Assembly (NCBI RefSeq): GCF_018070075.1
Contig: NZ_JAGPXE010000003.1
Span: 558,001-622,000 of the forward strand
DNA: 64,000 bases
From: Saccharopolyspora endophytica
GTDB lineage: Bacteria > Actinomycetota > Actinomycetes > Mycobacteriales > Pseudonocardiaceae
Direction: 5' to 3'
Shown here: positions 18,751 to 42,674 of the stretch, in pieces
Numbering within the stretch: the stretch's first letter is position 1
How the letters are laid out: the number at the start of each line of letters is the position of its first letter
The notes under the pieces: model-generated
Database searches by the model: none
What the model was told of the DNA's origin: nothing
Seen by the model: the letters and a program-made list of their open reading frames with translations, nothing else
Position numbers and translations under genes: made by a program

Positions 18751-19716
18751 TCAGCGCGCGATCGACAGCGACAGCGCGAACTCCGACGCGTCGTCCAGCC
18801 ACCAGCTCCCCAGGTCGAAACCGGCGACCGCCAGCTCGTCGGCGATGCGATTACGCCGGAACTTCGCCGAGATCTCGGTGCGGATCTCCTCGCCCTCGGC
18901 GAAGTCGACGTCCAGCGCGAGCTCGCGCACCCGCACGTGCATCGCCCGCGTGGCGCGCAGCCGCATCTCGATCCACTCCTGATCGGTGTTCCAGCGCGCC
19001 ACGTGCTCGAAGGCGTCCGCGTCGAAGTCCGCGCCGAGCCGGTGGTTGAGCACCTTGAGCACGTTGCGGTTGAACTCGGCCGTCACGCCCCGGGCGTCGT
19101 CGTAGGCGCGGATCACCCGCGACGGCTCCTTGACCAGGTCGGTTCCCAGCAGCAGCCACTCCCCCGGTCGCATCGCGGCGTGCAGGGCGGCGAAGAACCC
19201 GGCGCGCTCCTCCGGCAGGAGGTTGCCGATCGTGCCGCCCAGGAACGCCACCAGCCGGTCCTCGCCGTGGTCGAGGCGGCCGGTGGTGAAGTCGTCGACG
19301 ACCCCGGAGACCTCCAGGTCCGGGTAGTCGGCCTCGATGGCGGCGACCGCCGACCGCAGTGCCGATTCGGAGACGTCCAGCGGCACGAACCGGCGCAGCG
19401 TGCCGTGCTTGCTCAGCGCGTCCAGCAGCAGCCGGGTCTTCTCCGACGAGCCGGAGCCGAGCTCGACCAGCGTGGCGGCGTTGGTGAGCTCGGCGATGGT
19501 CAGCGCCGTCCGCCGCAGGATCTGGTGCTCGGCGCGGGTCTGGTAGTACTCGTCGAGCTCGGTGATGCGCTCGAAGAGCTCGCTGCCCGCTGCGTCGTAG
19601 AACCACTTGGGCGACAGCCACTTCGGGTGGTCGGTGAGTCCTTCGCGGACCTCGGCCCGCAGCTCGCGATCGGCGTCGGCTTCGGTGAAGCGCACGGTCA
19701 GCTCGGGAATTCGCAC
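18751..19716 (-). CDS. egtD: L-histidine N-alpha-methyltransferase EgtD
   Basis: The 321-residue SAM-dependent enzyme that trimethylates histidine to hercynine, the first committed step of ergothioneine synthesis. The length equals that of mycobacterial EgtD. The SAM-binding segment LVELGSGSSEKTRLLL, the histidine-binding YYQTRAEHQIL region and AFLGGTIGNLLP are all present. The GTG start at 19716 follows GGGGGAGGATTC. The start lies inside the last 19 bases of egtC, so the two are coupled. It is the last gene of a leftward egtA-egtB-egtC-egtD operon. Confidence 0.96.
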   Translation of the reverse strand: MRIPELTVRFTEADADRELRAEVREGLTDHPKWLSPKWFYDAAGSELFERITELDEYYQTRAEHQILRRTALTIAELTNAATLVELGSGSSEKTRLLLDALSKHGTLRRFVPLDVSESALRSAVAAIEADYPDLEVSGVVDDFTTGRLDHGEDRLVAFLGGTIGNLLPEERAGFFAALHAAMRPGEWLLLGTDLVKEPSRVIRAYDDARGVTAEFNRNVLKVLNHRLGADFDADAFEHVARWNTDQEWIEMRLRATRAMHVRVRELALDVDFAEGEEIRTEISAKFRRNRIADELAVAGFDLGSWWLDDASEFALSLSIAR

Positions 19717-20474
19717 GAATCCTCCCCCAGGGAAACGACCTCGGTGTGTTCGGTGTCGGCGACCATCAAGCAGCGGTCGGGGATCTCGACCCATCGGGTT
19801 CCGCCGGGCTCAGCGGCCTGGCCGAACGGTTCGGAGGCGACGGTCACCGCATCGGGGTCCCGGCGCACCCACAGCGAGTGCGTCCAGGTGGTGGCCACGA
19901 TCCGGGCGCCGTCGCCGAGCAGCAGGTTCAGCCGCGAGTCGGGTGCGGCGGCGTGCACGTCGCGGACCAGTTCCGCCATCGCGGTCTCGGGCTCGGCGCC
20001 GTCGGCGAGGCGCCGGCGCAGCAGCGCCCACAGCACGGCGGAGTCGGTGGGCTGGGCGGTGAGCAGCTCCGCCGGGTCCAGCCGCGCGGCGAGCTTGGCC
20101 AGCGAGTCCGGCCAGCCGCCGACCTTGCCGTTGTGGCTGAACAGCCACCGGCCGTCGGTCAGCGGCGCGCACAGCTCGGGTCCCACCGGCATGCCGACGG
20201 TCGCCGACCGCACGGCCGCCACCACCGCCGACGCCCGCAGGTCCCGGGCCAGCCGCGGGAACGACGTGTCGGTCCACATCGCCGCGCCGTTGCGGTAGAC
20301 GCCGGTGGTGCCGTCATCGCGGAACCAACCCGCGCCGAAGCCGTCGGCGTTGACGGTCCCGCCGCCGCGCATGTCGTTCGGCGCCCAGGACTGCTCCAGC
20401 AGCGAGTGCGCCGGGTCGAGCAGCAGCTCGGCCAGCGGAACGGGTGCTCCGAGGTAAGCCAGATGCCTGCACAT
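19698..20474 (-). CDS. egtC: Ergothioneine biosynthesis amidohydrolase EgtC
   Basis: A 258-residue class-II (Ntn) glutamine amidohydrolase that removes glutamate from gamma-glutamyl hercynylcysteine sulphoxide. After removal of the initiator Met the protein begins CRHLAYLGAP, giving the N-terminal cysteine nucleophile at position 2. WAPNDMRGGGTVNADGFG and FSHNGKVGGW are the substrate and oxyanion segments of the family. The start ATG (20474) is two bases after the egtB stop, and the 3' end overlaps egtD by 19 bases. Assignment is secure from sequence and operon order. Confidence 0.95.
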   Translation of the reverse strand: MCRHLAYLGAPVPLAELLLDPAHSLLEQSWAPNDMRGGGTVNADGFGAGWFRDDGTTGVYRNGAAMWTDTSFPRLARDLRASAVVAAVRSATVGMPVGPELCAPLTDGRWLFSHNGKVGGWPDSLAKLAARLDPAELLTAQPTDSAVLWALLRRRLADGAEPETAMAELVRDVHAAAPDSRLNLLLGDGARIVATTWTHSLWVRRDPDAVTVASEPFGQAAEPGGTRWVEIPDRCLMVADTEHTEVVSLGEDSCEFPS

Positions 20475-21828: not shown

Positions 21829-23046
21829 TCAGCTCAGGCGCCGGGCGATGTGCTCGGCGAGTCGGTCGGACAGTCCGTCGCCCGTGCCGCCCAGCAGTCG
21901 GCAGGCCAGGTCGAAGATGTCGCGGGCGCAGCGGGCCAGCACGGGGTCGGCGAGGCCGAAGCGGGCGGCGTGCACCCACCGCCGGGCGGCGGGCGCGGCC
22001 ATCACGGCCACCTTGTCCACGATGGACTCGTCGCCGAAGAGCACGGCGAGCGCGGCGGTGGGCAGCATCCAGTCGGTTCCGGATTGCGCGTCGAGGTAGC
22101 GCACCTCCAGGTAGCCGTGGGCGCGGACCGGCGGGAACACCGTGGTCAGGTGGTAGTCCAGGTCTTCGCGGGTGGGCGGTTCGGGCAGCCCGCCGTGGAT
22201 CCACTCGGCGAAGCTCAGGCCGCTGGGCGCCGACCAGTCCTCGCCCTCCCGACGCCGGCAGACGACCGCCATGTCGAGCATCCGTCGCGCCCATCCGCTG
22301 ACCGGGTCGCCCTTGGTGGGGCCGGGTCTGGTGCGCGGCGGATCGGTGTCGAGCAGCACGCGCGTGCGGGTGGAGGCCCAGCCGGTCTCCTCGCCGAACA
22401 ACCGGGGCGAGTTGGCGAAGGCGGCGATCATGACCGGTCCGAGGGCGTGCAGCGCGTTCCAGCGCGCGGCGATCCGGTCCGGCTCACCGGCGTCGAGGCA
22501 CACCTGCACGCCGGCGGTGCTGCACATCATCAGCCTGCCGTCCAGGCCGATGCGGTCGAACGCGGTCTCCATGGCTTGGTAGCGCGGCACGCGCAGGATC
22601 CGGTTCGGATGACGGTAGGGATCGGTTCCGCTGTCGCCCAGCGCCAGGTCCGCTCTGTCCAGCAGGCGGTGCAGGTGGTCGGCGTCGGCGGCCACGACGC
22701 TCAGCAGGGAGCGCAGCGATGTGGTGGGAAGACTGGAGATCTCGACCTGGCCACCAGGCTCAACGGTGAGCACGGAGCCGTTCGGCAGCGGTTGTTGCGG
22801 GCTGTCGGGAACCAGGGAGCGGGGTGCGTGCGGGCCGAGCGCGGCGCTGAGCGTCGCGGCGTCGAGGGCACGTCCCGGATCAGATCGGTGGTGCACGGTC
22901 CATTCGAGTTCGACACCCAGCAGCCGGGGAGGTCCGTGCTTGAAGCACACCGACGCGACGTAGGCTTCCGCCTCCGCCCTGGTCCGCACTCGTGAGGTCG
23001 GGAACTCGCCGGTTGCAGGATCGGTCGATATCGCCAAGATGATCAC
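21829..23046 (-). CDS. egtA: Glutamate-cysteine ligase EgtA
   Basis: A 405-residue ATP-dependent ligase making gamma-glutamylcysteine, the sulphur donor used by EgtB in the mycobacterial type of ergothioneine route. The GVELEWTVHH segment near the start carries metal-binding glutamate, GGQVEISSLPT is the second acidic motif, and RYLDAQSGTDWMLP lies near the end as in other EgtA proteins. I chose GTG 23046 as the first start with sensible homology; a TTG nine bases later is also possible, and neither has a strong ribosome binding site. It heads the egtABCD operon and is divergent from a TetR gene. Confidence 0.92.
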   Translation of the reverse strand: MIILAISTDPATGEFPTSRVRTRAEAEAYVASVCFKHGPPRLLGVELEWTVHHRSDPGRALDAATLSAALGPHAPRSLVPDSPQQPLPNGSVLTVEPGGQVEISSLPTTSLRSLLSVVAADADHLHRLLDRADLALGDSGTDPYRHPNRILRVPRYQAMETAFDRIGLDGRLMMCSTAGVQVCLDAGEPDRIAARWNALHALGPVMIAAFANSPRLFGEETGWASTRTRVLLDTDPPRTRPGPTKGDPVSGWARRMLDMAVVCRRREGEDWSAPSGLSFAEWIHGGLPEPPTREDLDYHLTTVFPPVRAHGYLEVRYLDAQSGTDWMLPTAALAVLFGDESIVDKVAVMAAPAARRWVHAARFGLADPVLARCARDIFDLACRLLGGTGDGLSDRLAEHIARRLS

Positions 23047-23193
23047 CGCCCGTGATTGGCCGGTTACCGACGCTACCGGCAGCCCCCGACAGTCGCGACC
23101 CTTGTTCTGCGCTCGGGCACCTGTTAGAAGCGGCGCGAAACACCGCCCGATCCGGTGCAGTTGCGCGGGAATCAGCTCGAAAAGCCAACAAAA

Positions 23194-23203
23194 CGTACGT
23201 ACG
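23194..23203. promoter_or_regulatory. Candidate TetR-type operator CGTACGTACG
   Basis: A perfect 10-base palindrome CGTACGTACG in the 196-base gap between egtA and the divergent TetR gene, 39 bases before the TetR start. CGTACG cores are typical of TetR-family autoregulatory sites. A single bound repressor could act on both genes; this is inference. Confidence 0.45.
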
Positions 23204-23242
23204 GATTGCAATGGCGACGACTGTCCTGCCAGGATTCACGCC

Positions 23243-29455: not shown

Positions 29456-29569
29456 GTGAGCACTTCAGTGCCAGCGGCACAATCCCCAGAGGGAAGCAGT
29501 ACCGAGCCGGGCAGTAGACCCGGCTATCTCCGATCGTCGGTCACTCACACGAGGCGGGCCGAGGGTTGA
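29456..29569 (+). CDS. Possible 37-aa leader ORF coupled to the CNNM gene
   Basis: A GTG-initiated frame opening MSTSVPAAQSPEG, whose TGA at 29567-29569 overlaps the TTG start of the next gene (TTGA). The overlap and position suggest coupling. The ribosome binding site is poor and the peptide is unrecognised. It may be a leader or chance. Confidence 0.3.
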   Translation: MSTSVPAAQSPEGSSTEPGSRPGYLRSSVTHTRRAEG

Positions 29570-30906
29570 TCGAAATCCTGCTGGCCGTTGTCGGCCTTCT
29601 GTTCATCGCAGTGCTCACGCTGGGCACCGGTCTCGCGGTGGCAGCGGAGTTCTCATTGACCTCGCTGGAACGCTCCACGGTGGACGCGCACGTGCACTCC
29701 GTGGACGACAAGCGGGCCCGCGCCGTGCAGCGCGCGCACCGCACGCTGTCGTTCCAGCTCTCAGGCGCGCAGGTCGCGATCACCCTGACCACTCTGATCA
29801 CCGGTTACGTGGCCGAGCCGCTCATCGGTGACCTGATCCAGCCGGTGCTGACGGCCCTGGGCATGCCGCTGGGCGTGGCCGGGGGCGTGTCCTTGGCGCT
29901 GGCGATCCTGCTGGCGACGGCGCTGTCGATGGTCTTCGGCGAGATGGTGCCGAAGAACCTCGCCATCGCCCGCCCGCTGCCCACGGCGCGCGCCGTGTCC
30001 GGCTACCACGCTCGGTTCTCGCAGGTGTTCAAGTGGCTGATCGACGCCATGAACAACAGCGCGAACTGGGTGGTGCGCAGGTTCGGCATCGAGCCCCAGG
30101 AGGAGCTGCGCTCGGCGCGCTCCCCCGACGAGCTCGGCTCGATCGTGCGCTCCAGCGCCGCGCACGGCACGCTCGACGAGTCCACGGCCCGGCTGATGGA
30201 CCGCTCGTTGCGCTTCGGCGACCGCAGCGCGGAAGAGCTGATGACCCCGCGCGTGCGGGTGGCGTCGCTGCAGGTCGGCGAGACCCTCGTGGACCTGCTA
30301 GACCTCGCCCGCCGGACCGGGTTCTCCCGGTTCCCGGTGCACGGCGGCGACCTCGACGAGGTCCAGGGCGTCGTGCACGTCAAGCAGGCGTTCGGCGTCC
30401 CGGCCTCGCGCCGGGAGTCCACCCGCGTGGAGACGCTGACCCGCCCGGTGCCGACGGTGCCGGCCACGCTGGACGGGGACGCGCTGCTCAACCGGCTGCG
30501 CGGATCGGGCCTCCAGCTGGCGGTCGTCGTCGACGAGTACGGCGGCACCGCAGGCATCGTGAGCCTGGAAGACGTGGTCGAGGAGATCATCGGCGACGTG
30601 CGCGACGAGCACGACCGGCTGGAGATCTCCGCCGTGCGCAGGCTCGGCGAGGACTCGTGGCTGATCTCCGGCCTGCTGCGCCCCGACGAGCTCGCCGAGG
30701 CCACCGGTTTCGAGATGCCCGAGGGCGACTACGAGACCGTGGCCGGCCTGCTGCTGTGGCGGCTGGGCCGGATCCCGTCGGTCGGTGACCAGCTCGAACT
30801 GGAGGACTGGCGGCTGACCGTCATGCGCATGGACAAGCACCGCATCGCCGAGCTGCGCCTCACCAAGCAGCCGGCCCAGGCCGAGTCGATGGAGGCGGCC
30901 CGATGA
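29566..30906 (+). CDS. CNNM/CorC-type hemolysin-family membrane protein (first of two)
   Basis: A 446-residue protein with an N-terminal DUF21/CNNM membrane domain (residues about 1-190, three to four helices, VFGEMVPKNLAIA motif). A CBS-pair follows (about 205-335, with SRFPVHGGDLDEVQG and VVDEYGGTAGIVSLEDVVEEI). The C-terminal CorC_HlyC domain covers about 350-430. Relatives export or sense Mg2+/Co2+ rather than lyse cells. The start is a rare TTG at 29566. The stop overlaps the next gene by four bases, giving a coupled pair of paralogues likely to act together. Confidence 0.92.
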   Translation: MIEILLAVVGLLFIAVLTLGTGLAVAAEFSLTSLERSTVDAHVHSVDDKRARAVQRAHRTLSFQLSGAQVAITLTTLITGYVAEPLIGDLIQPVLTALGMPLGVAGGVSLALAILLATALSMVFGEMVPKNLAIARPLPTARAVSGYHARFSQVFKWLIDAMNNSANWVVRRFGIEPQEELRSARSPDELGSIVRSSAAHGTLDESTARLMDRSLRFGDRSAEELMTPRVRVASLQVGETLVDLLDLARRTGFSRFPVHGGDLDEVQGVVHVKQAFGVPASRRESTRVETLTRPVPTVPATLDGDALLNRLRGSGLQLAVVVDEYGGTAGIVSLEDVVEEIIGDVRDEHDRLEISAVRRLGEDSWLISGLLRPDELAEATGFEMPEGDYETVAGLLLWRLGRIPSVGDQLELEDWRLTVMRMDKHRIAELRLTKQPAQAESMEAAR

Positions 30907-31943
30907 GCGACTCCTACGCGCTGCTGCTCGGCGTCCTCCTGCTGCTGCTCAACGCGCTGTTCGTGGGCGCGGAGTTCTCCCTGCTGTCCTCCCGCCGCGA
31001 CCGGCTGGAGGCCCTGCTGGCCCAAGGGGTCGGCCGGGCGCGCACGGTGATCAAGGCGAGCCAGGAAGGTTCGCTGATGCTCACCAGCGCGCAGCTGGGC
31101 ATCACGCTGTGCTCGCTGGGTCTGGGACGGCTGGGCGAGCCCGCCGTCGCGCACACCCTGGAAGCGCCGTTCAGCGCTCTGGGCATCCCGGAGCCGGTGA
31201 CGCACGCCGTGGCGTTCACGATCGCCCTGACGATCGTGGTGATCCTGCACGTGCTGGTCGGCGAGATGGTGCCCAAGAACCTGGCGCTGGCCGAGCCGGA
31301 GCGCATGGCGCTGTGGCTGGTGCCCGCGCTGGTCGGGTTCGTGCAGCTGGCGCGCCCGTTCATCGCGCTGTTCAACATGATGGCCAACGCGGTGCTCAAG
31401 CTGCTGCGGATCGAGCCGAAGGACGAGCTGGAGACCGCCTACACCTCGGCCGAGCTGGCCGAGCTGCTGGTGGAGTCGCGGCGCGAGGGGCTGCTGGAGC
31501 ACTCCGAGCACCGCAGGCTCGCCCAGACGCTGTCGTCGGTGGAGCACACCGTCGCCGACGTCCTGGTCCCGCTCCCGGAGGTCACGACGCTGCCGGGCCG
31601 TCCGACGCTGGGCGACGTGGAGCGGCTGGTGGCCGACACCGGCTTCTCCCGGTTCCCGGTGCGCGACGACGACGGCAGGCTGCTGGGCTACCTGCACATC
31701 AAGGACGTGCTCGACCAGGCGGGCGACGATCCGCAGACGCCGATCTCCGACGCCCGCAGGCGCGACCTGCCGACGGTGCCGGTGACCGCGCGCCTGGACG
31801 AGGCCATGACGTCGCTGCGCCGGGCGGGAAGCCACCTGGCCGCGGCGGTGGACGCCGGTGGCGCGGCGGTCGGCGTGGTGGCCCTGGAGGACCTCGTCGA
31901 GGAGTACGTGGGCACCGTCCGCGACGGCACGCACGTCCACTGA
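30903..31943 (+). CDS. CNNM/CorC-type hemolysin-family membrane protein (second of two)
   Basis: A 346-residue paralogue of the preceding protein, starting at ATG 30903 in an ATGA overlap. It has the DUF21/CNNM domain with VGEMVPKNLALAEP, and a CBS pair with FSRFPVRDDDGRLLGYLHIKDVLDQ and GVVALEDLVEEYVG. It lacks the C-terminal CorC_HlyC domain of its partner. This long-form/short-form tandem is common in actinobacteria and may form a hetero-oligomer for divalent cation handling. Confidence 0.92.
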   Translation: MSDSYALLLGVLLLLLNALFVGAEFSLLSSRRDRLEALLAQGVGRARTVIKASQEGSLMLTSAQLGITLCSLGLGRLGEPAVAHTLEAPFSALGIPEPVTHAVAFTIALTIVVILHVLVGEMVPKNLALAEPERMALWLVPALVGFVQLARPFIALFNMMANAVLKLLRIEPKDELETAYTSAELAELLVESRREGLLEHSEHRRLAQTLSSVEHTVADVLVPLPEVTTLPGRPTLGDVERLVADTGFSRFPVRDDDGRLLGYLHIKDVLDQAGDDPQTPISDARRRDLPTVPVTARLDEAMTSLRRAGSHLAAAVDAGGAAVGVVALEDLVEEYVGTVRDGTHVH

Positions 31944-32102: not shown

Positions 32103-33800
32103 GTGCGAGATGATCAGCTCTCGCCGTCCCACGCGGACACATCTTCCTCGGGCCGCGTGATCGGCGGCAGGTACCGGCTGGACCGCACCATCGGCAAGGG
32201 CGGGATGGGCTACGTCTGGTCCGGGACGGACGAGGTCCTGGAGCGCCCGGTGGCGGTCAAGGAGCTCCACCTGCCCGCCGACCTGCCCGAAGAAGGGGCC
32301 GCTGACCTGCGCGAACGAGCCCTGCGCGAAGCGCGGGCGATGGCGACCCTCAGCCACCCCAACACCGTGATGCTCTACGACGTGGTCCGGGAGGACGCCT
32401 CCGGTCCGTTCGTGGTCATGGAACTGGTGCCGGGGCGGAGCCTGTCGGCGATCCTGAAGAAGCACCGCGCGCTCAACCACTACCAGCTGGCCGTCATGAT
32501 CGACGGCGTTGCCGCGGCGCTGGACGCCGCGCACCGGGTCGGCATCGTGCACCGCGACGTCAAGCCGGGCAACGTGCTGCTCGGCCCGCGCGGGCAGGTC
32601 AAGCTCGCCGACTTCGGGCTCTCCCGCAACATCGCCGAGACCACCATGACCCGATCCGAGATGCTGCTGGGCACGCCCGCGTACCTGCCGCCGGAGATCG
32701 CGCGCCGGGGCGCCCTCGACTCGCGGGCCGATCTGTGGAGCCTCGGCGCCACGCTCTACTCGGCCGCCGAGGGCCGCCCGCCGTACGACAAGACCAGCGA
32801 TCCGCTGGTCATCATCAGCGCGATCGTGCACGGGCCGATCCCCCGCCACCACCAGACCGGACCGATCGGCGAGGTCCTCGGCGGGCTCCTGGTCAAGGAG
32901 CCGGACCGGCGGATGCCGCTGGTGGAGGTGCGCCGCAGGCTGCACGAGATCGTCAGGTCCGCCGGTGACGAGCCGTTCGAGCCCCTGCTGGACCCCAACG
33001 CTCCGGAAGCCACCGAGCGCATCCCGAGCCGGCGTCCGATGCCGTCGGTCTCCGCGCACCCGCTGCCGCCGGTGTCCACGCCGCGCGAGTCCCGGGTCGC
33101 CGAGCGCCGCCAACCGGTCCCGCGGGTCGCGCCGCCGTCGCACCCGCGCCCGCCGGTCCCGCCACAGCAGGTGCGCGCCGCGCGGCCCGTCTCGCCCGCG
33201 CAGTCCGAGCGCCCGCACGAGCCAGAACCCCCGGCGCCGCGCCGCAGCCGGCGGCGGATCGTCATCGCTGCGACGGCGCTGGTAGTCGTGGCCGGACTGG
33301 CGCTCGGCTACGCGATGGTCACCGAGGACTCGTCCGAGAACGGGAACGAGAACCAGAACCAGAAAACGGAGATCAAGCCCAGCGAGCCGATCGGCAGCGC
33401 CTTCGAGGTGATCGAGGCCGAGAGGTCCGGTTGGATCGGTCGCCCGCTGCACACCGTGTCCTCGAACGGTGCCACCTACGCCGCCCCGCTGAGATCGGGT
33501 GACGTGATGCGGTTCGACGGGGTCGATTTCGGCGCCAGCCCCGCCAACGGGATGGTCCTCCGATTCCGCACCGCGCGGTCGGTGTCCGACGGCGGCAGGA
33601 TCACCCTGCGGTTGGACAGCCCCACGGGCGAGTACATCAGCGAGCTCAGAATCGGTCGTCCCGACGAAACCCCCACGCCGATGACCTCGAGAGCACCGCT
33701 TTTCCGAGGCATCACCGGTACGCACACGGTCTACCTGGTCGTCAGCGGGACCGTCCCCAGCGAGATCCTCCAGCTTGACTGGGTGCAGTTCCGCCACTGA
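32103..33800 (+). CDS. Receptor Ser/Thr kinase with extracellular CBM6-like module
   Basis: A 565-residue membrane kinase. Residues 24-285 are a complete Hanks kinase: IGKGGMGYV (30-38), Lys53, HRDVKPGN with Asp152, DFG 170-172, and PPE in the activation segment. A Pro-rich juxtamembrane stretch (about 310-380) leads to one transmembrane helix (386-406). Residues about 434-565 then read like a family 6 carbohydrate-binding module: EVIEAERSGW at the start, RSGDVMRFDGVDFG, RITLRLDSPTGE, GITGTHTVYLVVSG and the terminal ILQLDWVQF. No PASTA repeats are present. The module should face the cell wall, so the kinase may sense a surface or environmental glycan. The start is GTG 32103. It lies upstream of a glycan locus. 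Confidence 0.9.
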   Translation: MRDDQLSPSHADTSSSGRVIGGRYRLDRTIGKGGMGYVWSGTDEVLERPVAVKELHLPADLPEEGAADLRERALREARAMATLSHPNTVMLYDVVREDASGPFVVMELVPGRSLSAILKKHRALNHYQLAVMIDGVAAALDAAHRVGIVHRDVKPGNVLLGPRGQVKLADFGLSRNIAETTMTRSEMLLGTPAYLPPEIARRGALDSRADLWSLGATLYSAAEGRPPYDKTSDPLVIISAIVHGPIPRHHQTGPIGEVLGGLLVKEPDRRMPLVEVRRRLHEIVRSAGDEPFEPLLDPNAPEATERIPSRRPMPSVSAHPLPPVSTPRESRVAERRQPVPRVAPPSHPRPPVPPQQVRAARPVSPAQSERPHEPEPPAPRRSRRRIVIAATALVVVAGLALGYAMVTEDSSENGNENQNQKTEIKPSEPIGSAFEVIEAERSGWIGRPLHTVSSNGATYAAPLRSGDVMRFDGVDFGASPANGMVLRFRTARSVSDGGRITLRLDSPTGEYISELRIGRPDETPTPMTSRAPLFRGITGTHTVYLVVSGTVPSEILQLDWVQFRH

Positions 33801-33814
33801 TACCCTGACCAGCG

Positions 33815-34693
33815 ATGTTGGTGTTGAGCAAGCAGGAGTGGCGCGAGCGGCGAACCGCGCACCGGGAACGGGTCGCCCAGTGGACCGAGCCCCACCGCCG
33901 ACGTCAGCACCAGCACCGCGCACACCCGGTGCTGGACTTCCTGTTCACGTACTACTCGTTCCGCCCGGCCCGCCTGGAGCGGTGGCAGCCCGGCGTCGGC
34001 GTGGTGCTGGAGAACGGTCAGGAGTTCCTGTCCCGCAAGGGCTTCACCGAAGTGCCCGGCGGTGTCGCGCTGGAACCGGCGGCGCTGACCGACAAGCGGC
34101 GCGACTCGGCGGAGTTCATCCTCGGCCTGCTCAGCGCGACCGCCTCCCGCCCGGCCCGGCTGGGCTGCTTCGGGCTGCACGAGTGGGCGATGGTCTACCG
34201 CACCGAGCCGGGCGACGTCCGGCACAGCGGCTGGCCGCTGCGGCTGGGGCACGACGGCACCGACGAGGTCGTGGAGTCGATGCCGATCAGCTGCACCCAC
34301 CACGACGCGTTCCGGTTCTTCACCCCGCAGGCCCGCCCGCTCAACGAGCTGCAACCGTCCCGAGCCGACCAGGTCAGGCTGGAGCAGCCGGGCTGCCTCC
34401 ACGCGAACATGGACCTGTTCAAGTGGGCTTACAAGCTCGACCCGTTCGTGCCCGGCGAGCTCATCGCCGACTGCTTCGAGCTGGCGGTGCGGGTGCGCGA
34501 GCTGGACATGTGCGCCAGCCCCTACGACCTCTCCGAGCTCGGGTACGAGCCGGTGCCGATCGAGACACCGCAGGGGCGCGCCGACTACGTCCGGCGGCAG
34601 CGCGAGTTCGCCGAGGAGGCCGCGGGGCTGCGGCAACGGCTCATCGACACCTGCCGCGACATCCTGGCCTGGGCCGCGCCGAGTTCGGTCTGA
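33815..34693 (+). CDS. Conserved actinobacterial protein of unknown function
   Basis: A 292-residue soluble protein opening MLVLSKQEWRERRTAH, with the phrases HPVLDFLFTYYSFRPARLERWQPG and PISCTHHDAFRFFTPQARP. Similar proteins occur widely in actinomycetes, and some databases label them 3-methyladenine DNA glycosylase, a label I cannot support from any motif here. Several conserved histidines and cysteines (GCFGLHEW, CTHHDA, PGCLHANMDL) could bind a metal. It begins 14 bases after the CBM6 kinase, so the two are probably cotranscribed. Function unknown. Confidence 0.8.
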   Translation: MLVLSKQEWRERRTAHRERVAQWTEPHRRRQHQHRAHPVLDFLFTYYSFRPARLERWQPGVGVVLENGQEFLSRKGFTEVPGGVALEPAALTDKRRDSAEFILGLLSATASRPARLGCFGLHEWAMVYRTEPGDVRHSGWPLRLGHDGTDEVVESMPISCTHHDAFRFFTPQARPLNELQPSRADQVRLEQPGCLHANMDLFKWAYKLDPFVPGELIADCFELAVRVRELDMCASPYDLSELGYEPVPIETPQGRADYVRRQREFAEEAAGLRQRLIDTCRDILAWAAPSSV

Positions 34694-34727: not shown

Positions 34728-36128
34728 CTAGTGCTCGGCCGCCAGGGTGCCGACGGCGCCCGCCGGTGTTCCCGCGTTCCCGGGTGCCGCGGAGGACCGG
34801 CTCAGCGCCCACGCCATGCCGACCGCCACCGTCAGCGCCGCGAGCGCCTGCGCGGCGACCGCGGCGGCCACCGGCTCCCCCGGTGATGTCAGCACCGCCA
34901 CCAGGACCACGGCTCCCGCCAGCCAGGACACCGCGACCTTGCGGTGCCGACCGCGCGCGACCAGCGCCGCGTGCAGCACCTGCGCTCCCATCAGCAGCAC
35001 CGTGCTGCCCACCAGGCACACCAGGGTCAGCGTCGACAGGGCGACCCGCGTTCCGAACAGCTCCCGCAGAGCCCAACCGCCGAGGCCGAGAACGCCCAGG
35101 AGCCCGGCGGCTCCGAACGCCAGAGCCACCGCCATGCCGTTCCTGATCGTCGCCCGGAAGCGACGTCGTTCCGCGCGCGCCTGAGCGTCGGTCAGCGCTG
35201 TCAGCAGGAACGCCTGCACCGGGGAGAACACGAACATCGGCATCCTCGCCAGCAGCAGTCCGGCAGCGAAAGCCGCTGCCAGCGCGGCGTCCTGCAGCCG
35301 GGTCGTCACGATCACGACCGAGAGGTTGGCGATCACGTAGGTCAGCAGCGTCGCCACCGCCAGCGACGGCAACCCGCCGGACGCGGCCGGCCGGGAACCG
35401 CCGTTCGCGACGGCATCCCCGAGACCAGGGCGCACGAGCGAACGTCGCCGCCTCGACGCGCACAGCGCGCCGACGAGCGCGCTGCACCCGGTGCCGGCCG
35501 CGAACGTGGCCGCGTACCACGTCACCGGAACCGGACCCGCGAACCACGCGGAGCCGACGAGCAGGAGCCGTCCGATCCCCTCCGCGCCCAACGACGCCGC
35601 GTACCCGCCGAAATCGTCCATGCCTGCCAGCACTCCCCGCACCAGCGACATCATCGCGGCGAGCGCGGTGTTGGCCGCGACCACGACCAGCAGCCCGCAG
35701 TGGCCCGCGAGCGCGTCGTCGACCAGGAACGGCGCGCACGCCACGAGCGCGAGCAACCCTGCGGCGAGCAACCCCGCTCCGCGAATCGCCGTTCGCACCA
35801 CCGCTTCTCGCACCGAACGTCCCAGCGCGACCGCGTGCGCGGTGCGGCGGCTCACCTCCTGCTCCAAGGCGAGGAAGACGCCCGGACCGAGGATGTTGAC
35901 GACCATGTACACCGTGGACACCGCAGCCGCCTCGGACGGGGCGAACAGGTGTCCCGCCAACGCGACGAACGCGTAGCCCGCCGCTCCGACCAGAACGGTT
36001 CCCACCGCGAGCGCCACTGCCCCCGACTGCGCACCTCCGGTCACGGAATCGCACGCTACGCGCGCCGGAACACCCCCGCAGAACGCACGAGCTCCGCCAC
36101 GGCTGCGGTGTCCCCAAAGGACGAACAT
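34728..36128 (-). CDS. Wzx/MATE-like polysaccharide flippase
   Basis: A membrane protein of about 466 residues with twelve or more hydrophobic segments, resembling oligosaccharide flippases that move lipid-linked glycans across the membrane. GPGVFLALEQEVSRRTAHA and the later PVQAFLLTALTDAQAR match actinomycete members of the polysaccharide biosynthesis transporter group. The start is uncertain: ATG 36128 is used here, GTG 36044 sits closer to the first helix, and the frame stays open to 36323. No clear ribosome binding site decides it. It faces the epimerase across a divergent gap and belongs with the glycan genes that follow. Confidence 0.8.
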   Translation of the reverse strand: MFVLWGHRSRGGARAFCGGVPARVACDSVTGGAQSGAVALAVGTVLVGAAGYAFVALAGHLFAPSEAAAVSTVYMVVNILGPGVFLALEQEVSRRTAHAVALGRSVREAVVRTAIRGAGLLAAGLLALVACAPFLVDDALAGHCGLLVVVAANTALAAMMSLVRGVLAGMDDFGGYAASLGAEGIGRLLLVGSAWFAGPVPVTWYAATFAAGTGCSALVGALCASRRRRSLVRPGLGDAVANGGSRPAASGGLPSLAVATLLTYVIANLSVVIVTTRLQDAALAAAFAAGLLLARMPMFVFSPVQAFLLTALTDAQARAERRRFRATIRNGMAVALAFGAAGLLGVLGLGGWALRELFGTRVALSTLTLVCLVGSTVLLMGAQVLHAALVARGRHRKVAVSWLAGAVVLVAVLTSPGEPVAAAVAAQALAALTVAVGMAWALSRSSAAPGNAGTPAGAVGTLAAEH

Positions 36129-36326
36129 CACCGCGGAACCGCGCCGCTCAGAGCCTTCCCGTTCGAGGAGCTGCGCGGTCGTCGGGAGCATCACGTGTGA
36201 GTGGTGTGCCACCTCCCGGTTTGCGGCTCTCGCTCCGCGCAACACACGCTCGCAGGTATCAGGTGGCAGCGAGCGGACGCAAAAACCTGAATTCAGAATC
36301 GTTTTCGCCATTTCAGGAGGCAACTT

Positions 36327-37388
36327 GTGCGCGCTTTGGTGACGGGCGGGGCCGGATTCATCGGCTCACACCTCGTGGATCAGCTCGTTCGTGATGGTGA
36401 TGAGGTGTGCGTGGTCGACGACCTCAGCCGGGGAAGCGCGGCCAACCTGGCGGAGTCGCTCGACACCGGAAGGATCAGCCTGCACCGCGTCGACGCCTGC
36501 TCTTCCGAACTCGTTGCCCTGGCGAGAGAACACCGACCAGAGGTCGTCTACCACCTCGCCGCGCAGATCGACGTCCGCGCCAGCGTCGCCGACCCGCTCG
36601 CCGACGCGCGCTCCAACGTCCTCGGCGTCGTCAACGTCGCCGAGGCGGCACGGGCATCAGGCGCCCGCAAGGTCGTCTACGCCACCTCCGGAGGCTCCAT
36701 CTACGGGCACGCCACGACCATTCCGACCGACGAATCCGCACCTGTGCAGCCGTTCTCGCCGTACGCGGCGTCGAAGTTCGCGGGCGAGATCTACTTCGAC
36801 ACCTACCGGCGACTGCACGCCTTGGAGTGCACGCACCTGGCGATGGCCAACGTCTACGGTCCCCGCCAGCTCTCGCTCGGCGAGGCGGGTGTCGTGTCCG
36901 TGTTCGCCGGCGCGATGCTCGACGGATCGCCGACCTCGATCTACGGCGACGGCCGCAACACCCGCGACTACGTGCACGTGCACGACGTCATCGCCGCGTT
37001 CATCGCGGCCTCGGGAGCACGGGGTTCCGGCAAGCGCTACAACGTGAGCACCGGCGTGCCGACCTCCGACCGGGAGCTGCACTCCATCGTCGCCGAGGCG
37101 ACCGGTGCGCCCGACGAACCGGCGTTCCTGCCCGCGCGGCAGGGCGACGTGCGGGACTCCGTGCTCGACTGGTCCCGCATCGGCCGCGAACTCGGCTGGA
37201 AGCCGCAGATCGACCTCGTCACCGGCATCGGCACCGTCGTGGAGCACCTGCTGTCGCAGAGCGGCATCCCGGTTCCAGGCCCCCGACGCCACCGATCCGA
37301 AGACGTCTCGCGAGAAGGTTCAGGAGGTCCGGTCACGCTCTTCGTCGAGGGCGACCGCGCGCGCCAGCCGCGAGAACCGCACCCGTAG
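36327..37388 (+). CDS. NAD-dependent sugar epimerase/dehydratase (GalE-like)
   Basis: A 353-residue extended SDR enzyme acting on nucleotide sugars. The NAD site is VTGGAGFIGSHL near the N-terminus. DVRASVADPLADARSNVLG and the catalytic YAASKFAGE (Tyr-x3-Lys) follow, then NVYGPRQ and RDYVHVHDV as in GalE-type epimerases. The GTG at 36327 is six bases after AGGAGG. The last ~35 residues run beyond the usual fold end, and the final 69 bases overlap the convergent DUF2304 gene. It likely makes a UDP-sugar for the surface glycan assembled by its neighbours. Confidence 0.92.
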   Translation: MRALVTGGAGFIGSHLVDQLVRDGDEVCVVDDLSRGSAANLAESLDTGRISLHRVDACSSELVALAREHRPEVVYHLAAQIDVRASVADPLADARSNVLGVVNVAEAARASGARKVVYATSGGSIYGHATTIPTDESAPVQPFSPYAASKFAGEIYFDTYRRLHALECTHLAMANVYGPRQLSLGEAGVVSVFAGAMLDGSPTSIYGDGRNTRDYVHVHDVIAAFIAASGARGSGKRYNVSTGVPTSDRELHSIVAEATGAPDEPAFLPARQGDVRDSVLDWSRIGRELGWKPQIDLVTGIGTVVEHLLSQSGIPVPGPRRHRSEDVSREGSGGPVTLFVEGDRARQPREPHP

Positions 37389-37655
37389 TTCCTTGAACCG
37401 CAGGTAGGTGTTGAGCGAGAAGAACGCGAACGCCGTCACCAGCCCGTACAGCAGCAGGTCCGAGCCCCGGCCCACGCCGACGGCGGCTGCCAGCACCGTC
37501 AGCGTGTCGGGGCGCAACACGGCGAACACGCCGAACGCCAGGAACATGATGAATCCGATTCGGACCGCGGCCGTCACGTACGTCGTGCCGTGGTGCCGGA
37601 GGAAGAACACCAGCAGCGCCGTCACGGCGGCGACGAGGATCACCTGAATTGTCAT
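37320..37655 (-). CDS. DUF2304 small membrane protein
   Basis: A 111-residue protein with three hydrophobic segments and the DUF2304 pattern (FAVLRPDTL, GRGSDLLLYGLVTAF and FRFKELRV-like YLRFKELRVRFSRLA). Such proteins are regularly encoded beside dolichyl-phosphate-type GT2 transferases, probably as a membrane partner. Here the ATG overlaps the stop of the GT2 gene by four bases. The 3' end overlaps the convergent epimerase by 69 bases. Confidence 0.9.
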   Translation of the reverse strand: MTIQVILVAAVTALLVFFLRHHGTTYVTAAVRIGFIMFLAFGVFAVLRPDTLTVLAAAVGVGRGSDLLLYGLVTAFAFFSLNTYLRFKELRVRFSRLARAVALDEERDRTS

Positions 37656-38347
37656 CTGATGTGCTCCGTCTTGGTCCGCACCACCGTCTCGAACGCGATG
37701 TTGACCGCGTTGAGCAGTGACTGTCCCTTGGCCATGGAATAGGCGGTGTACCGAATCGTCACCGGGCTCTCGGCGACCCGCCAGCCCAGACACCGGATCA
37801 TGCCGATGATCTCGGAGGCGTGACCCATGCCGTCGCAGGTGATCTCCATCGTGTCGGCGACCGATCGGTTGAACGCCCGCAACCCGTTGTGCGCGTCGGA
37901 GAGCTGCAGGCGCCGCAGGCTCGGACTGCACCGCACCACCGTGCGCAGGACCACTCGTTTGAGGATCGGCACGGACGCTGAGCCATCGCCGAACCGGGTG
38001 CCGATGACGATGTCCCGATCGCCGGTCGCCAGCTCGTCGAGCAACCGGACGGCGTCGGACACCTGGTGCTGGCCGTCGGCGTCGAAGGTCAGGAACCACC
38101 GGGTGCCCGGGCGCGTTCGCGCGAACTCGACCCCGGTCTGCAGCGCGGCGCCCTGCCCGAGGTTCACCGGATGCCGCACCACCACGGCGCCGGCCTGGCG
38201 CGCCAGGGCGGCGGAATCGTCGGCGCTCCCGTCGTCGACGCACACCACGTTCGGGAACGTCTGCCTGAGCTCGGTGACCACCTCGTGGATGACCGTCGCC
38301 TCGTTGTACATCGGAATGATCACCCAGATGTCGTCCCGTGCAGTCAT
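37652..38347 (-). CDS. GT2 glycosyltransferase (polyprenyl-phosphate sugar synthase type)
   Basis: A 231-residue GT-A fold transferase of family 2. It opens with IWVIIPMYNEATVIHEVV, has the first acidic motif VDDGSADDS and the metal-binding LTFDADGQHQ, and HNGLRAFNRS follows. The absence of C-terminal membrane helices, and the DUF2304 partner, fit a dolichyl-/polyprenyl-phosphate mannose or glucose synthase. The product would be the donor for GT-C enzymes encoded nearby. It overlaps by four bases with both neighbours (ATGA junctions), placing it in the middle of a four-gene leftward operon. Confidence 0.92.
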   Translation of the reverse strand: MTARDDIWVIIPMYNEATVIHEVVTELRQTFPNVVCVDDGSADDSAALARQAGAVVVRHPVNLGQGAALQTGVEFARTRPGTRWFLTFDADGQHQVSDAVRLLDELATGDRDIVIGTRFGDGSASVPILKRVVLRTVVRCSPSLRRLQLSDAHNGLRAFNRSVADTMEITCDGMGHASEIIGMIRCLGWRVAESPVTIRYTAYSMAKGQSLLNAVNIAFETVVRTKTEHIR

Positions 38348-40347
38348 CGCGTTCCCCTCCGTCGGTCGGGCGTTGGCGCCGACGAATCCAGGTTGGGGGT
38401 CTCGGAGCAGGAGGACAGCGCGAACAAGGCCAGTTCACCCTGCCGTTCGACCAGCCGAAAACCGTGAAGTGCTCCCGGATCGCGCACACCGGGGTAGTCA
38501 TCGACCCTGGGGTCGGTCGGCCAGAAGTGCACCTCGCCCACGAGCAGGTAGCGCACGCCCATCTTCGCCGCGAGCCGGCACGCGCGGGGGTCGGTGGCGG
38601 CGAACACGAGGTTCTGGGCCAGGTAGTCCTGCTCGGCGGTCTGCTTCCGGCCGTCCAGCTGTCCGAACAGGACGCGGCGGCCCTGCAGCGGCCACAGCAG
38701 GGCGCTGCCGTCCCACGGGTTGTTGGCGACCACGGCGTCCGGTTCGATGCGGTCGCGGATCCGCGCGAAGAACTCCGCTTCGTCCGGGCTGACCATGTTG
38801 GTCGCCGGGGCGTCCTCGGCGGCGAAGGAGCTGTGCACGGCCAGCGCGGTGCGGCCCAGGTGCAGGCCCTTGGTGGCGCCCGCGAGGATCAGCGCGATCA
38901 GCAGCGTGGTCGCGCCGACCGGTACCGCGACCCGCAGGTCGATCCGCGCCCGGAGCCACTCGGCGATCGCGACGGTGCCCAGCACGGCCAGCGGCACCCC
39001 GGTGATCGGCAGCATCGCCGCGATCCGCCACGAGTCGCTGTACCAGAAGCCGGTCAGCACCATCGTCCACGGCGACTGGATCGACGCGGCCATCACGAAC
39101 AGCGCGGCAGACACCGCGTGGGCGGCCGCGAGCCACCGCAGCGCCGGGTCGCGGAGCGATCGCACGACTCCCACCAGGACGACCGCCGCCAGCAGCCACT
39201 CCGCGCGACGTCCGTGCGTGGCGTGCAGCAGTACCTCGCCGACGGCTCCGGCAGCGGTGGTGGTCGGCGCCCACCACACGGCCGCGACCTCCCGCATCAG
39301 CGACGTCGTGCGCAACGCGGCCAGCAGCGCCAGCGGCACGACCACCGCCGCGGCCACGGTCCACCCGGCGCGACCGACGCGGCCGTCGGCCACGTGCTCG
39401 CGCGCCCGCTGCGCGGTCGTCACCAGGATCAGGACCGAGGCCAGCACCACCAGGCACACCACCGTGTTCGGGTGGGCGAGCGCCATCCCCACGAGCGTCA
39501 CGGCGAGCAGCACGAGCGCGCGAGGCCGGCCGACCGCGTCGTCGACGGCTCGGCCCGTCACCGCCAGCACCAGGCCCAGCGCCACGGGAACGAGGCTCAT
39601 CCCCAGCAGGTTCGGCCACAGCACGCCCCACTTGAGCAAACCCCACGGGAACGCGGTGAACCCGACCGAGTAGAGCCCGGTGACGGCCAACGTCCCCGGC
39701 CGCGGACCGAACACCTGGCGCGCCAGGAAGACGCACGCCAGCGGCCACACCAGGACGGCGATCACCCCGGCGACCGCGTTCGCCCCGGCCGGGATCGCTC
39801 CTCCGACGGTGGCGAGCACCAGCGCGGTGACGTCGTGCCACGCTGCCGGGTAGAACCGGGCCGGCGCCCCCGGCACGTCCAGCGCGCCCAACGTCAGCGA
39901 CGACGCATCACCGGAGTCCCGGATCGCGGCGAGCGCCGAGTAGTGGAACACCGCGTCGAAGCTCTGCGACAGGGCCGCCGGTGTCCGCAGCGCCAGCACG
40001 AGCGCGGCCACCCCCAGCAGGGCCCCGACCAGCACACCGCCGGCGGCGCAGGCCCGCACCGTTCCCCGGTCACGCGCGGGGCGTCCGCCGACCAGCGAGT
40101 TCACCGCGATCGCGAGCAACGTCGCGAGAACGACCGCGGCCAGCGCCACGATCGGCGACCACCGCACCGACGCGGCTCCGGCGACGACCGCGGCCATCGA
40201 CAGCGTCGCCACCGCCAGCGCCGGAGCCGCGGCCCACGCCGCGCATCCCCGCAGTCCCATCGCCGACGCGATCGGCAACCCCGACAGCACCAACCACACC
40301 ACCGCCGCTGCCCACAGCGGAACCGCGTGCACCCAAGCGTCGGCCAT
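38344..40347 (-). CDS. Large polytopic membrane protein, GT-C/DUF6541-like (667 aa)
   Basis: A 667-residue protein with about 14 hydrophobic segments and a C-terminal soluble part. The luminal-type loop after the first helices contains SQSFDAVFHYSALAA, with an Asp typical of GT-C active sites. FYPAAWHDVTALVLA and a C-terminal block with DAVVANNPWDGSALLWPLQG resemble actinomycete DUF6541 membrane proteins. I read it as a polyprenyl-phosphate-sugar-dependent transferase; this is inference. ATG 40347 is two bases after the upstream stop. A frame running on to 41199 is only the shadow of that gene. Confidence 0.78.
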   Translation of the reverse strand: MADAWVHAVPLWAAAVVWLVLSGLPIASAMGLRGCAAWAAAPALAVATLSMAAVVAGAASVRWSPIVALAAVVLATLLAIAVNSLVGGRPARDRGTVRACAAGGVLVGALLGVAALVLALRTPAALSQSFDAVFHYSALAAIRDSGDASSLTLGALDVPGAPARFYPAAWHDVTALVLATVGGAIPAGANAVAGVIAVLVWPLACVFLARQVFGPRPGTLAVTGLYSVGFTAFPWGLLKWGVLWPNLLGMSLVPVALGLVLAVTGRAVDDAVGRPRALVLLAVTLVGMALAHPNTVVCLVVLASVLILVTTAQRAREHVADGRVGRAGWTVAAAVVVPLALLAALRTTSLMREVAAVWWAPTTTAAGAVGEVLLHATHGRRAEWLLAAVVLVGVVRSLRDPALRWLAAAHAVSAALFVMAASIQSPWTMVLTGFWYSDSWRIAAMLPITGVPLAVLGTVAIAEWLRARIDLRVAVPVGATTLLIALILAGATKGLHLGRTALAVHSSFAAEDAPATNMVSPDEAEFFARIRDRIEPDAVVANNPWDGSALLWPLQGRRVLFGQLDGRKQTAEQDYLAQNLVFAATDPRACRLAAKMGVRYLLVGEVHFWPTDPRVDDYPGVRDPGALHGFRLVERQGELALFALSSCSETPNLDSSAPTPDRRRGTR

Positions 40348-40349
40348 CG

Positions 40350-42431
40350 TCACCTCGTCGAGTTCACGACGACGGGAGGTCGTCCGGCCGGCGGACCCGC
40401 GTCGAGGGCGCGAATCGCGTTCAGGTCCACCGAGTACACCGCGACCGTGCCGCTGCGGAACGCGGGACGGACCTCGGGCAGCGCTTCCAGGTTCAGCAGG
40501 CCCGGTGCCAGCCCGAACGACGGCGCGGAGACCCAGTTCTCGGGCGCTCCCGCCGAGCTGATGGTCGGGGTCTTGGTGTCCACGTAGATCCAGGCGACGT
40601 CGAGATCGGTCAGGGCGCGCCGGATGTCGCTCTCGGTTCGATACCGGTTGAAGTCCTCCAGCAGCGCGTAGCTCGGCGGCCAGGCGGCGGCGCCCAGCGT
40701 CAGCACGTTCACCACCGGCACCCCGCCCAGGACGTAGAGGTAGGTCGACCCGTCGTTCGCGGAGTTCAGCACGCGCTGGCCGGGGAGCACGCGGGGAGCG
40801 AGCCACCGGATCGCGGCGAGGTCGTCGGGCGACACGCGCACGTACGGCGTCGGACTGCTGAACCGGCTGGCGACCGTGGACTGCGCGATGCGCAGGTATC
40901 CCGGCAGGACGGCCATCCCGTAGACCGCGGCCAGCACCATCACCAGCCCGACCGCGGCCCACCGGCCCGCCGAGGGGCGCAGCGACGGCAGCCGAGGCAG
41001 CCTCCGCGCCACCACCGCAGCCGTGAACACGACTCCCAACGCCGCGATGACCGGCACGAACAGGTTCAGGTGGCTGGAGATCCGGAAGGTCGCGTTGTAG
41101 AAGTAGCGGGTGATCCCGGCTTCCCAGCCACGGCCCGGGCTGACGTACATGGCCACGACGACTACCGCCCACGCGCCCCACGCCGCGACCAACCCCCACG
41201 GCCCTCCTCTGACCAAGATCGCCACCAGACCCGCCAGCAACAGCAGCATCACCGCGAACTGCCCGGAACCGAGCGGCACCACGTCACCGGGGAACCCGTC
41301 GTAGGGAACCGCGAACACCCGGCCCATCGCCTGCGTCACCGACTCGGGCGGTTTCTCCGACGGGAACGTGGTCACGGTCGCGCGTTGCGACAGCACCGCG
41401 GCGAGTCCCGGCAGCGACATCACCGCCGCCACCACGACGGCAGCGCCCACCGCGCGCACCCGGTCCTTGGCGAAACCCGCTCCACCCCGGGTGAACAACT
41501 CGCCCGCGCACCAGGCCACCACGCTCACCCCCACGGTCACCCCTGCGCTCGGGTGCACCGCCACCGCGCCCGCGCACGCGAGACCGGCCACGAGCACCGG
41601 CCCCACGGCCGGTGCCATCGTCACGAGGACCGTCAGGATGCCCGGCGCCATCGCCAGCGCGGTCGCGTTCGGCAGCATCCCGCCCACGTGGTTGAGCAGG
41701 AACATGGGCTGCTGCAGGCCGATCGCCACCACAGCGGCCATCCCGCCGGCGACCATCGCGATTCCGAAGCCCATTCGCGCCCGCCGGGCCGCCATGACGC
41801 CCAGGGTCGCCACCGACACCGGCCACACGACCGCGCAGACCACGACGGCCACCGCGTTCAACCCGACCACGGCGTCCCCGGCGCACCGGGCCACGATCGC
41901 CGAAAGCAGGTGCAATCCTGCCGGATACGGCTGGGCAGGTGCTCCGGTGAGCAGGTCGGCCGGCAGCAGCTGCCAGGGTGCGCCCCGCCCGGTGCGTTCG
42001 ATGAACGCCGTCAACGTCGTGTGCACGACCATGTCGTGCTCCTGCGGCACGGTGCGGAGCGAACCCATGCCCGCCAACCACGACCGCGTCCCCGCCGCGA
42101 TCGCACCCACGACCAGCACGACACCGCAGACGGCTCCGACCAGCTCGACCGGTCGACGCCGCGGCCCGGTCGACGGTTCGCGGGGGCTACGCCACCACAC
42201 CCCGACGCCGACCAGCGCCACCAGCCCGACGACCACGCAGAGCGGAACAGGTCCGAACGGCACGCCGATCAACGCGCAGCCCATCGCGGTCAGCGAGGCG
42301 ATTCCGCACGAGATCGGCGGCGCGACTCCCGCGATCCAGCTCGCCCGTCTCACCCGGGCCGCCAGCAGCACGATCGCGCCGGGGACGAACAGCACCAACG
42401 TCGCGATCGCGAGCACCCACAAGCTCTCCAC
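40350..42431 (-). CDS. Large polytopic membrane protein, GT-C/DUF6541-like (693 aa)
   Basis: A 693-residue relative of the downstream membrane protein, with the same plan. The early acidic loop is VPQEHDMVVHTTLTAFIERT, the segment PYPAGLHLLSAIVAR corresponds to the FYPAAWHD block of the neighbour, and the C-terminal part includes NSANDGSTYLYVLGG. The start is probably GTG 42431, after GTGGGGCAC; the frame extends back to 42518. It heads the leftward operon of two membrane proteins, GT2 and DUF2304. Two such paralogues side by side suggest two successive sugar additions. Confidence 0.78.
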   Translation of the reverse strand: MESLWVLAIATLVLFVPGAIVLLAARVRRASWIAGVAPPISCGIASLTAMGCALIGVPFGPVPLCVVVGLVALVGVGVWWRSPREPSTGPRRRPVELVGAVCGVVLVVGAIAAGTRSWLAGMGSLRTVPQEHDMVVHTTLTAFIERTGRGAPWQLLPADLLTGAPAQPYPAGLHLLSAIVARCAGDAVVGLNAVAVVVCAVVWPVSVATLGVMAARRARMGFGIAMVAGGMAAVVAIGLQQPMFLLNHVGGMLPNATALAMAPGILTVLVTMAPAVGPVLVAGLACAGAVAVHPSAGVTVGVSVVAWCAGELFTRGGAGFAKDRVRAVGAAVVVAAVMSLPGLAAVLSQRATVTTFPSEKPPESVTQAMGRVFAVPYDGFPGDVVPLGSGQFAVMLLLLAGLVAILVRGGPWGLVAAWGAWAVVVVAMYVSPGRGWEAGITRYFYNATFRISSHLNLFVPVIAALGVVFTAAVVARRLPRLPSLRPSAGRWAAVGLVMVLAAVYGMAVLPGYLRIAQSTVASRFSSPTPYVRVSPDDLAAIRWLAPRVLPGQRVLNSANDGSTYLYVLGGVPVVNVLTLGAAAWPPSYALLEDFNRYRTESDIRRALTDLDVAWIYVDTKTPTISSAGAPENWVSAPSFGLAPGLLNLEALPEVRPAFRSGTVAVYSVDLNAIRALDAGPPAGRPPVVVNSTR

Positions 42432-42674
42432 CGTGCCCCACTTGCGTTGACTGCGTCGCCGGGTGATTTCCGGCGACGTACGTCGCACGTCACCGCAATC
42501 GATGACGGCTCTGATCACGGCACAGGCAAGCTAAATCAGAGCACTCATGATCGCAGTCCCAGAACCGGTGCCCGGACGAGTGATCGAGCGTTCGCGCGCA
42601 CCCCGCTTCGAAACTAGCGTCGCGACGAAGCCGCCGCGCAGAAACATCCGTTCACTACTCAAAAGAGGGTATCG

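Follow-up and report, generated by a model that had tools for sequence, protein, structure and literature searches.

What does a bacterial receptor kinase sense when its extracellular head is of a sugar-binding module family whose members usually accompany secreted enzymes? The question is raised by a gene in a 64,000-nucleotide stretch of the Saccharopolyspora endophytica genome (hereafter the window), at positions 32103..33800 of the forward strand. The gene starts with GTG and encodes a receptor Ser/Thr kinase of 565 amino acids, as judged from the open reading frame and its orthologues. An initial annotation, made from the letters alone, had read the product as a kinase in which a CBM6-like ectodomain replaces PASTA repeats, and had proposed that it acts as a direct sugar sensor. 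To our knowledge, few ligands of bacterial receptor kinases have been established.

Layout of the kinase and family of its ectodomain

The protein opens with a Hanks-type kinase domain at about residues 24-292 (32172..32978, + strand, as are the other parts of the gene and its conserved neighbours below), matched by Pfam Pkinase at residues 24-233 (E 8.4e-45), the far end near residue 292 having been placed by eye. It carries the motifs GKGGMG, VAVKE, HRDVKPGN and DFG, with invariant residues in an 11-row alignment, and the catalytic motifs are found in all 14 single-frame relatives. A proline-rich cytoplasmic linker follows (about residues 293-385, 32979..33257), ending in RRSRRR and differing among the aligned relatives. 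One membrane helix, located by hydropathy alone (residues 386-404, 33258..33314; Kyte-Doolittle maximum 2.38 over 19 residues), separates kinase from ectodomain. A short extracellular stalk, taken as the span from the helix to the start of the CBM6 match (residues 405-430, 33315..33392), leads to the ectodomain itself (residues 431-565, 33393..33797), which was assigned to CBM6 from Pfam and Foldseek and combines a fast-diverging surface with a kept core.

The match to Pfam CBM_6 (PF03422) has an E of 4.3e-12 for the whole protein and 2.6e-13 for the ectodomain alone, the latter scoring 50.8 bits against a family cut-off of 28.9. The motif reading of the initial annotation was thus borne out by the profile search. 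All 15 ectodomains compared, the window copy included, match CBM_6 at E up to 0.01, the curated cut-off having been compared for the window copy only. A single-sequence fold prediction was weak, and the VIA list gave the same Z to jelly rolls of other kinds and to chains of phage tails. Ten columns of a 15-row alignment are invariant (A35, E36, G62, F72, R99, G135, V139, D155, W156 and F159), and these look structural. With the CBM6 modules of glycosidases (CtCBM6, 1gmm/1uxx; 2v4v; BhCBM6, 1w9s) the ectodomain has in common the family, a terminal DWxxF-type motif and the core columns. It differs from them in being carried by a kinase instead of a secreted enzyme, in missing the cleft-A residues and in the faster divergence of its surface.

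No PASTA repeat was matched in the 565-residue protein by Pfam at E up to 10, and the NCBIfam model PknB_PASTA, which matches residues 17-411, reaches 246 bits, its cut-off being 450. The idea that this is the PASTA kinase of the cell, its sensor exchanged for another, was rejected, since two other kinases of the genome (L007 and L008), among the 10 scanned of its 15 other kinase matches, carry PASTA repeats. It has the layout of the PASTA kinases PknB, PrkC and Stk1, in which a single membrane helix joins a Hanks kinase in the cytoplasm to an extracellular sensor at the C terminus, the PASTA repeats being theirs. The lectin receptor-like kinases of plants are of another fold and another organism. 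They offer an analogy of layout only, a lectin-type ectodomain on a receptor kinase, as presented in PMC5485988. PknD of Mycobacterium tuberculosis, as described in PMC6213207, is likewise a receptor kinase whose ectodomain is built of beta-sheet and is not of the PASTA type; there it is a six-bladed propeller and here a CBM6-family head.

Distribution and genomic place

The gene with its CBM6 ectodomain is present in 15 of the 22 genomes of the genus that were searched, its own included, and always at one syntenic place. Thirteen of these copies are single frames; one (G091) is split by a contig end, and in another (G129, L180 5152-7756) the kinase is encoded in one frame and the CBM6 part in a second that overlaps it, so that the gene is broken or the sequence contains an error. 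In the remaining seven genomes no orthologue was found at E up to 1e-80; six of them hold a paralogous kinase alone and one neither, and a weak match to CBM6 lies elsewhere in the genome of one of the seven, G153. Across a family sample of 297 genomes, matches above 170 bits are confined to this genus and to two genomes of one other genus (G012 and G052), both of which have the kinase. A sample of the weaker family matches comprised 24 distinct CBM6 proteins, and a kinase domain was matched in none of them. All ten of those scanned are GH16, GH3 or GH64 enzymes, two of the GH16 matches falling just below the Pfam cut-off. In a phylum sample of 396 genomes nine matched at E up to 1e-30, the kinase's own genome among them, and the matches in the other eight are not kinases. 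A scan of named genomes, in which kinase motifs were sought as patterns, covered at least 80 kinase loci and gave no CBM6 match among the matches listed; near relatives may be missing from it and its weight is low. The survey of actinomycetes that had been called for thus found the same architecture in 15 of 22 genomes of the genus and in two of a second. No bacterial kinase with a CBM6 ectodomain appeared among the matches listed from the titles and abstract starts of open-licence PMC articles, although one may be published; independent fusions of kinase and CBM6 may also have arisen outside the two genera.

Two genes for CNNM/CBS membrane proteins lie upstream of the kinase, the first of CNNM/CBS/CorC_HlyC type (29566..30906) and the second at 30903..31943, and a gene for a 292-residue protein follows 14 bases downstream (33815..34693). 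Pfam matched nothing in the latter protein at E up to 1e-5. Each of the 16 relatives examined (14 from the genus and two from the other genus) has the second CNNM gene and the 292-residue gene on either side of the kinase, with the locus of G091 lying on two contigs. The 292-residue gene is itself widespread: 85 of the 100 genomes sampled from the family have it, and the CNNM pair is often its neighbour. From these 85, 20 loci of 19 other genera were inspected over 6-8 kb each, and a kinase frame was found in none of them. Both flanking genes were found in 17 of the 20, less than 200 bases apart in nine, and no CNNM gene was found in the other three. As the kinase occupies the same place in two genera and no kinase frame was found in the 20 other loci, it looks as though the kinase was gained between the CNNM and 292-residue genes in an ancestor of the two genera. 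By position only, the CNNM pair and the 292-residue protein are candidate substrates of the kinase.

The initial annotation had also pointed to a surface-glycan locus beside the kinase. A glycan-type block is indeed present in the window at 34728-42518, encoding a membrane-like protein without Pfam match, an epimerase, DUF2304 and DUF6541. It follows the 292-residue gene, however, in only two of the 16 relatives (G025 and G091), at least 5 kb of downstream DNA having been covered in the others. A link between the kinase and the adjoining glycan genes was therefore rejected, its constant neighbours being the CNNM pair and the 292-residue gene. Further upstream, the window holds genes for a histidine-specific methyltransferase and a glutamate-cysteine ligase of family 2 (18751-19794 and 21829-23211), which we take to be an ergothioneine gene pair.

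The existence of a kinase with a CBM6-like ectodomain is thus confirmed by Pfam and by the conserved layout, which both genera keep at the same syntenic place.

Divergence of the ectodomain

What is new at this locus is an ectodomain that diverges far faster than its surroundings. Between the window copy and its nearest relative, G091, 261 of 270 kinase residues are identical (97%), against 61 of 133 in the ectodomain (46%). The neighbouring proteins are 95-99% identical in the same comparison (341 of 346 residues for the second CNNM gene, 276 of 292 for the downstream protein). Divergence was followed through 17 species pairs, hand-chosen out of the 105 possible among 15 rows. Thirteen of these have kinase domains at least 90% identical, and their ectodomains are 39-76% identical in 12 cases and 95% in one. 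Among the non-kinase CBM6 proteins, by contrast, pairs with an upstream catalytic slice at least 90% identical keep the CBM6 at 88-96% in ten of ten usable pairs. At 85-89% catalytic identity the enzyme CBM6 modules drop to 54-85% (10 usable pairs), so the contrast is partly one of degree. Two of the 22 pairs in this control were dropped, their CBM6 pieces having 16 and 18 aligned residues. A simple count of dN/dS, rough at these distances and made on a set in which two of the 17 pairs differ from those used for identity, gave 0.46-1.62 for the ectodomain (over 1 in three of 17 pairs) and 0.10-0.39 for the kinase. Tree tips tell the same story for individual copies, with ectodomain against kinase lengths of 1.11 and 0.009 changes per site for the window copy, 0.64 and 0.013 for G156, and 0.73 and 0.016 for G155.

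A six-row and a five-row group agree between the kinase and ectodomain trees. The grouping of the window copy with G091 has weak support in the ectodomain tree (56/12), and the group of G150, G155 and G157 is missing from it, yet is not rejected (p 0.31). The trees therefore do not reject a shared history of kinase and ectodomain. Fourfold-site divergence, counted at identical codons, is higher in the ectodomain than in the flanks in nine of 17 pairs, no different in seven and lower in one; p ranges from 0.018 to 1e-10 in the raised pairs, which are dependent on one another, and is uncorrected. For part of the tree, alleles that are old or were imported are suggested by this pattern. A domain swap between species is not shown by these data, fourfold divergence being raised in nine of the 17 pairs and a shared history not being rejected. 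Within the window, the ectodomain DNA has no repeats beyond chance matches of 14-17 bases, although a retroelement or a template may lie in another part of the genome.

The change is not spread evenly over the domain. Core and surface were assigned from sequence rather than structure, the core as the 40 columns in which at least 80% of enzyme CBM6 modules have a hydrophobic residue and the surface as 97 mostly polar columns. In each of the 16 kinase ectodomains the core columns are 80-95% hydrophobic. The window copy has the fewest core hydrophobics (0.80), and carries Pro526 where nearly all others have Trp. Identity in the core is 0.61 among kinase copies and 0.64 among enzymes, whilst on the surface it is 0.34 among kinase copies and 0.57 among enzymes. 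The fold thus seems to be constrained while the surface changes. A kept core and a changing surface favour a functional head whose target keeps moving, although a weakly constrained surface would give much the same picture.

The paralogous kinase provides a control. It is 58% identical to the present protein in the kinase part (L002, G000:C30:99116-100060), and its ectodomain, taken as 156-160 residues, is unrelated to the CBM6 ectodomain and gave no hit in Pfam at E up to 1e-4. The window genome's paralogue is 95% identical over 578 residues to a kinase of Saccharopolyspora aridisoli (L085). The paralogue ectodomain also diverges faster than its own kinase, which argues that receptor heads in these organisms evolve fast in general. 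Of nine pairs compared, five show higher identity in the paralogue ectodomain than in the CBM6 ectodomain (for example, 69% versus 39%) and four show lower; the CBM6 ectodomain changes in bursts.

Cleft A and the nature of the ligand

According to the account in PMC10284105, three residues of CtCBM6 hold the ligand in cleft A: the aromatic Tyr34, Trp92, which stacks, and Asn120, which forms hydrogen bonds. Their places in the window copy are taken by P462 (33486..33488), T523 (33669..33671) and Q557 (33771..33773). The Tyr34 and Trp92 columns were set by alignment with 1gmm, which is loose at Trp92, and that of Asn120 by the terminal motif, the 1gmm piece ending there. The window copy therefore has no cleft A with an aromatic pair and Asn. 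The comparison was extended to the 24 non-kinase CBM6 proteins and to 16 kinase ectodomains, comprising those of the 13 genus copies in a single frame, the G091 and G129 pieces and that of G012, with G052 left out. Trp occupies the Trp92 column in 24 of 24 non-kinase proteins and in none of the 16 kinase copies, eight of which have a gap there; an aromatic residue within one column of it is likewise found in 24/24 and 0/16. Within one column of Tyr34, an aromatic residue occurs in 11 of the 24 non-kinase proteins and again in no kinase copy, the other 13 enzyme modules also lacking one. Asn stands at the Asn120 place in 15/24 non-kinase proteins, with Ser in the rest, and in 2/16 kinase ectodomains, with Gln, Asp, Glu or Lys in the others. 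Since enzyme CBM6 modules vary in cleft A too, its loss says more about function than about whether the domain belongs to the family. The atypical CBM6 of HhXyn5A, as presented in PMC10284105, likewise has neither the aromatic pair nor Asn120, albeit on a secreted xylanase.

These residues weigh most directly on the proposal of the initial annotation, that the kinase senses polysaccharide directly through cleft A in the canonical manner. The CBM6 half of that proposal stands, and the ten of ten scanned non-kinase relatives that bear CBM6 on GH16, GH3 or GH64 enzymes lend the proposal some colour. The sugar-binding half is weak, as a cleft without plausible sugar-binding residues had been named as the observation that would count against it, and for cleft A this is largely what is seen: neither the Trp nor the second aromatic residue is found in any of the 16 kinase copies. 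Because the cleft-A residues are missing, a canonical polysaccharide sensor of this kind is very improbable, and binding of xylan- or laminarin-type chains at cleft A in the canonical way is unlikely. Somewhat better placed, though still rather unlikely, is a glycan sensor that uses a non-canonical face (cleft B, or cleft A in a polar form devoid of aromatics) to read the organism's own envelope or capsule glycan. Fast change would then arise as the ectodomain tracks species-specific glycans; family membership and the glycan-type block adjoining the kinase in the window are consistent with this, and PMC10284105 describes cleft B as a second site of CBM6 and a model of a CBM6 without the cleft-A aromatic pair. 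The structural look of the ten invariant columns and the presence of the glycan block in two of 16 relatives tell against it.

The ectodomain might instead be a structural spacer, a loosened CBM6 that holds the kinase at the wall or in dimeric form and whose surface is nearly free to drift. An ectodomain dN/dS of 0.46-1.62, uneven tip lengths (1.11 changes per site in the window copy against 0.21 in G091) and the separate frames of the G129 gene would fit such a spacer. Thirteen of 15 genus copies, however, are full-length single frames, and the core columns keep the 80-95% hydrophobic pattern that free drift would wipe out. Moreover, the ectodomains of G150/G155 and G155/G157 are 54-55% identical with fourfold-site divergence not above that of the flanks, which argues for more than drift and leaves the spacer unlikely. 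The reading we prefer, tentatively and at somewhat short of even confidence, is that a CBM6 scaffold has been repurposed to sense a lineage-specific extracellular ligand; against it, fast change can also reflect weak constraint.

On this preferred reading, the CBM6 jelly roll would have been turned into a receptor head whose ligand differs between species. Candidate ligands are the organism's own envelope glycan, bound through another face, or a protein or other surface molecule of another cell or a phage. By analogy with the PASTA kinases, for which activation by dimerisation is described in PMC6213207, ligand binding would alter the dimer state of the head, and the changed dimer state would trigger autophosphorylation by the cytoplasmic kinase. 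It is a good deal less probable that the diversifying head serves as a receptor for recognition of self and foe, discriminating strain- or species-specific surface molecules of kin, competitors or phage. Such a receptor would be, at similarly long odds, a jelly-roll counterpart of the diversified sensors proposed for other multicellular bacteria. The latter have a different genetic basis in the account of PMC10907252, which supplies the idea rather than a match.

The CBM6 kinases provide a compact receptor, the sensor of which belongs to a family with many solved structures and has lost the usual binding site of that family. Its surface shifts among close relatives and its kinase does not. Several heads used in parallel as bait would offer a direct path to ligand discovery.
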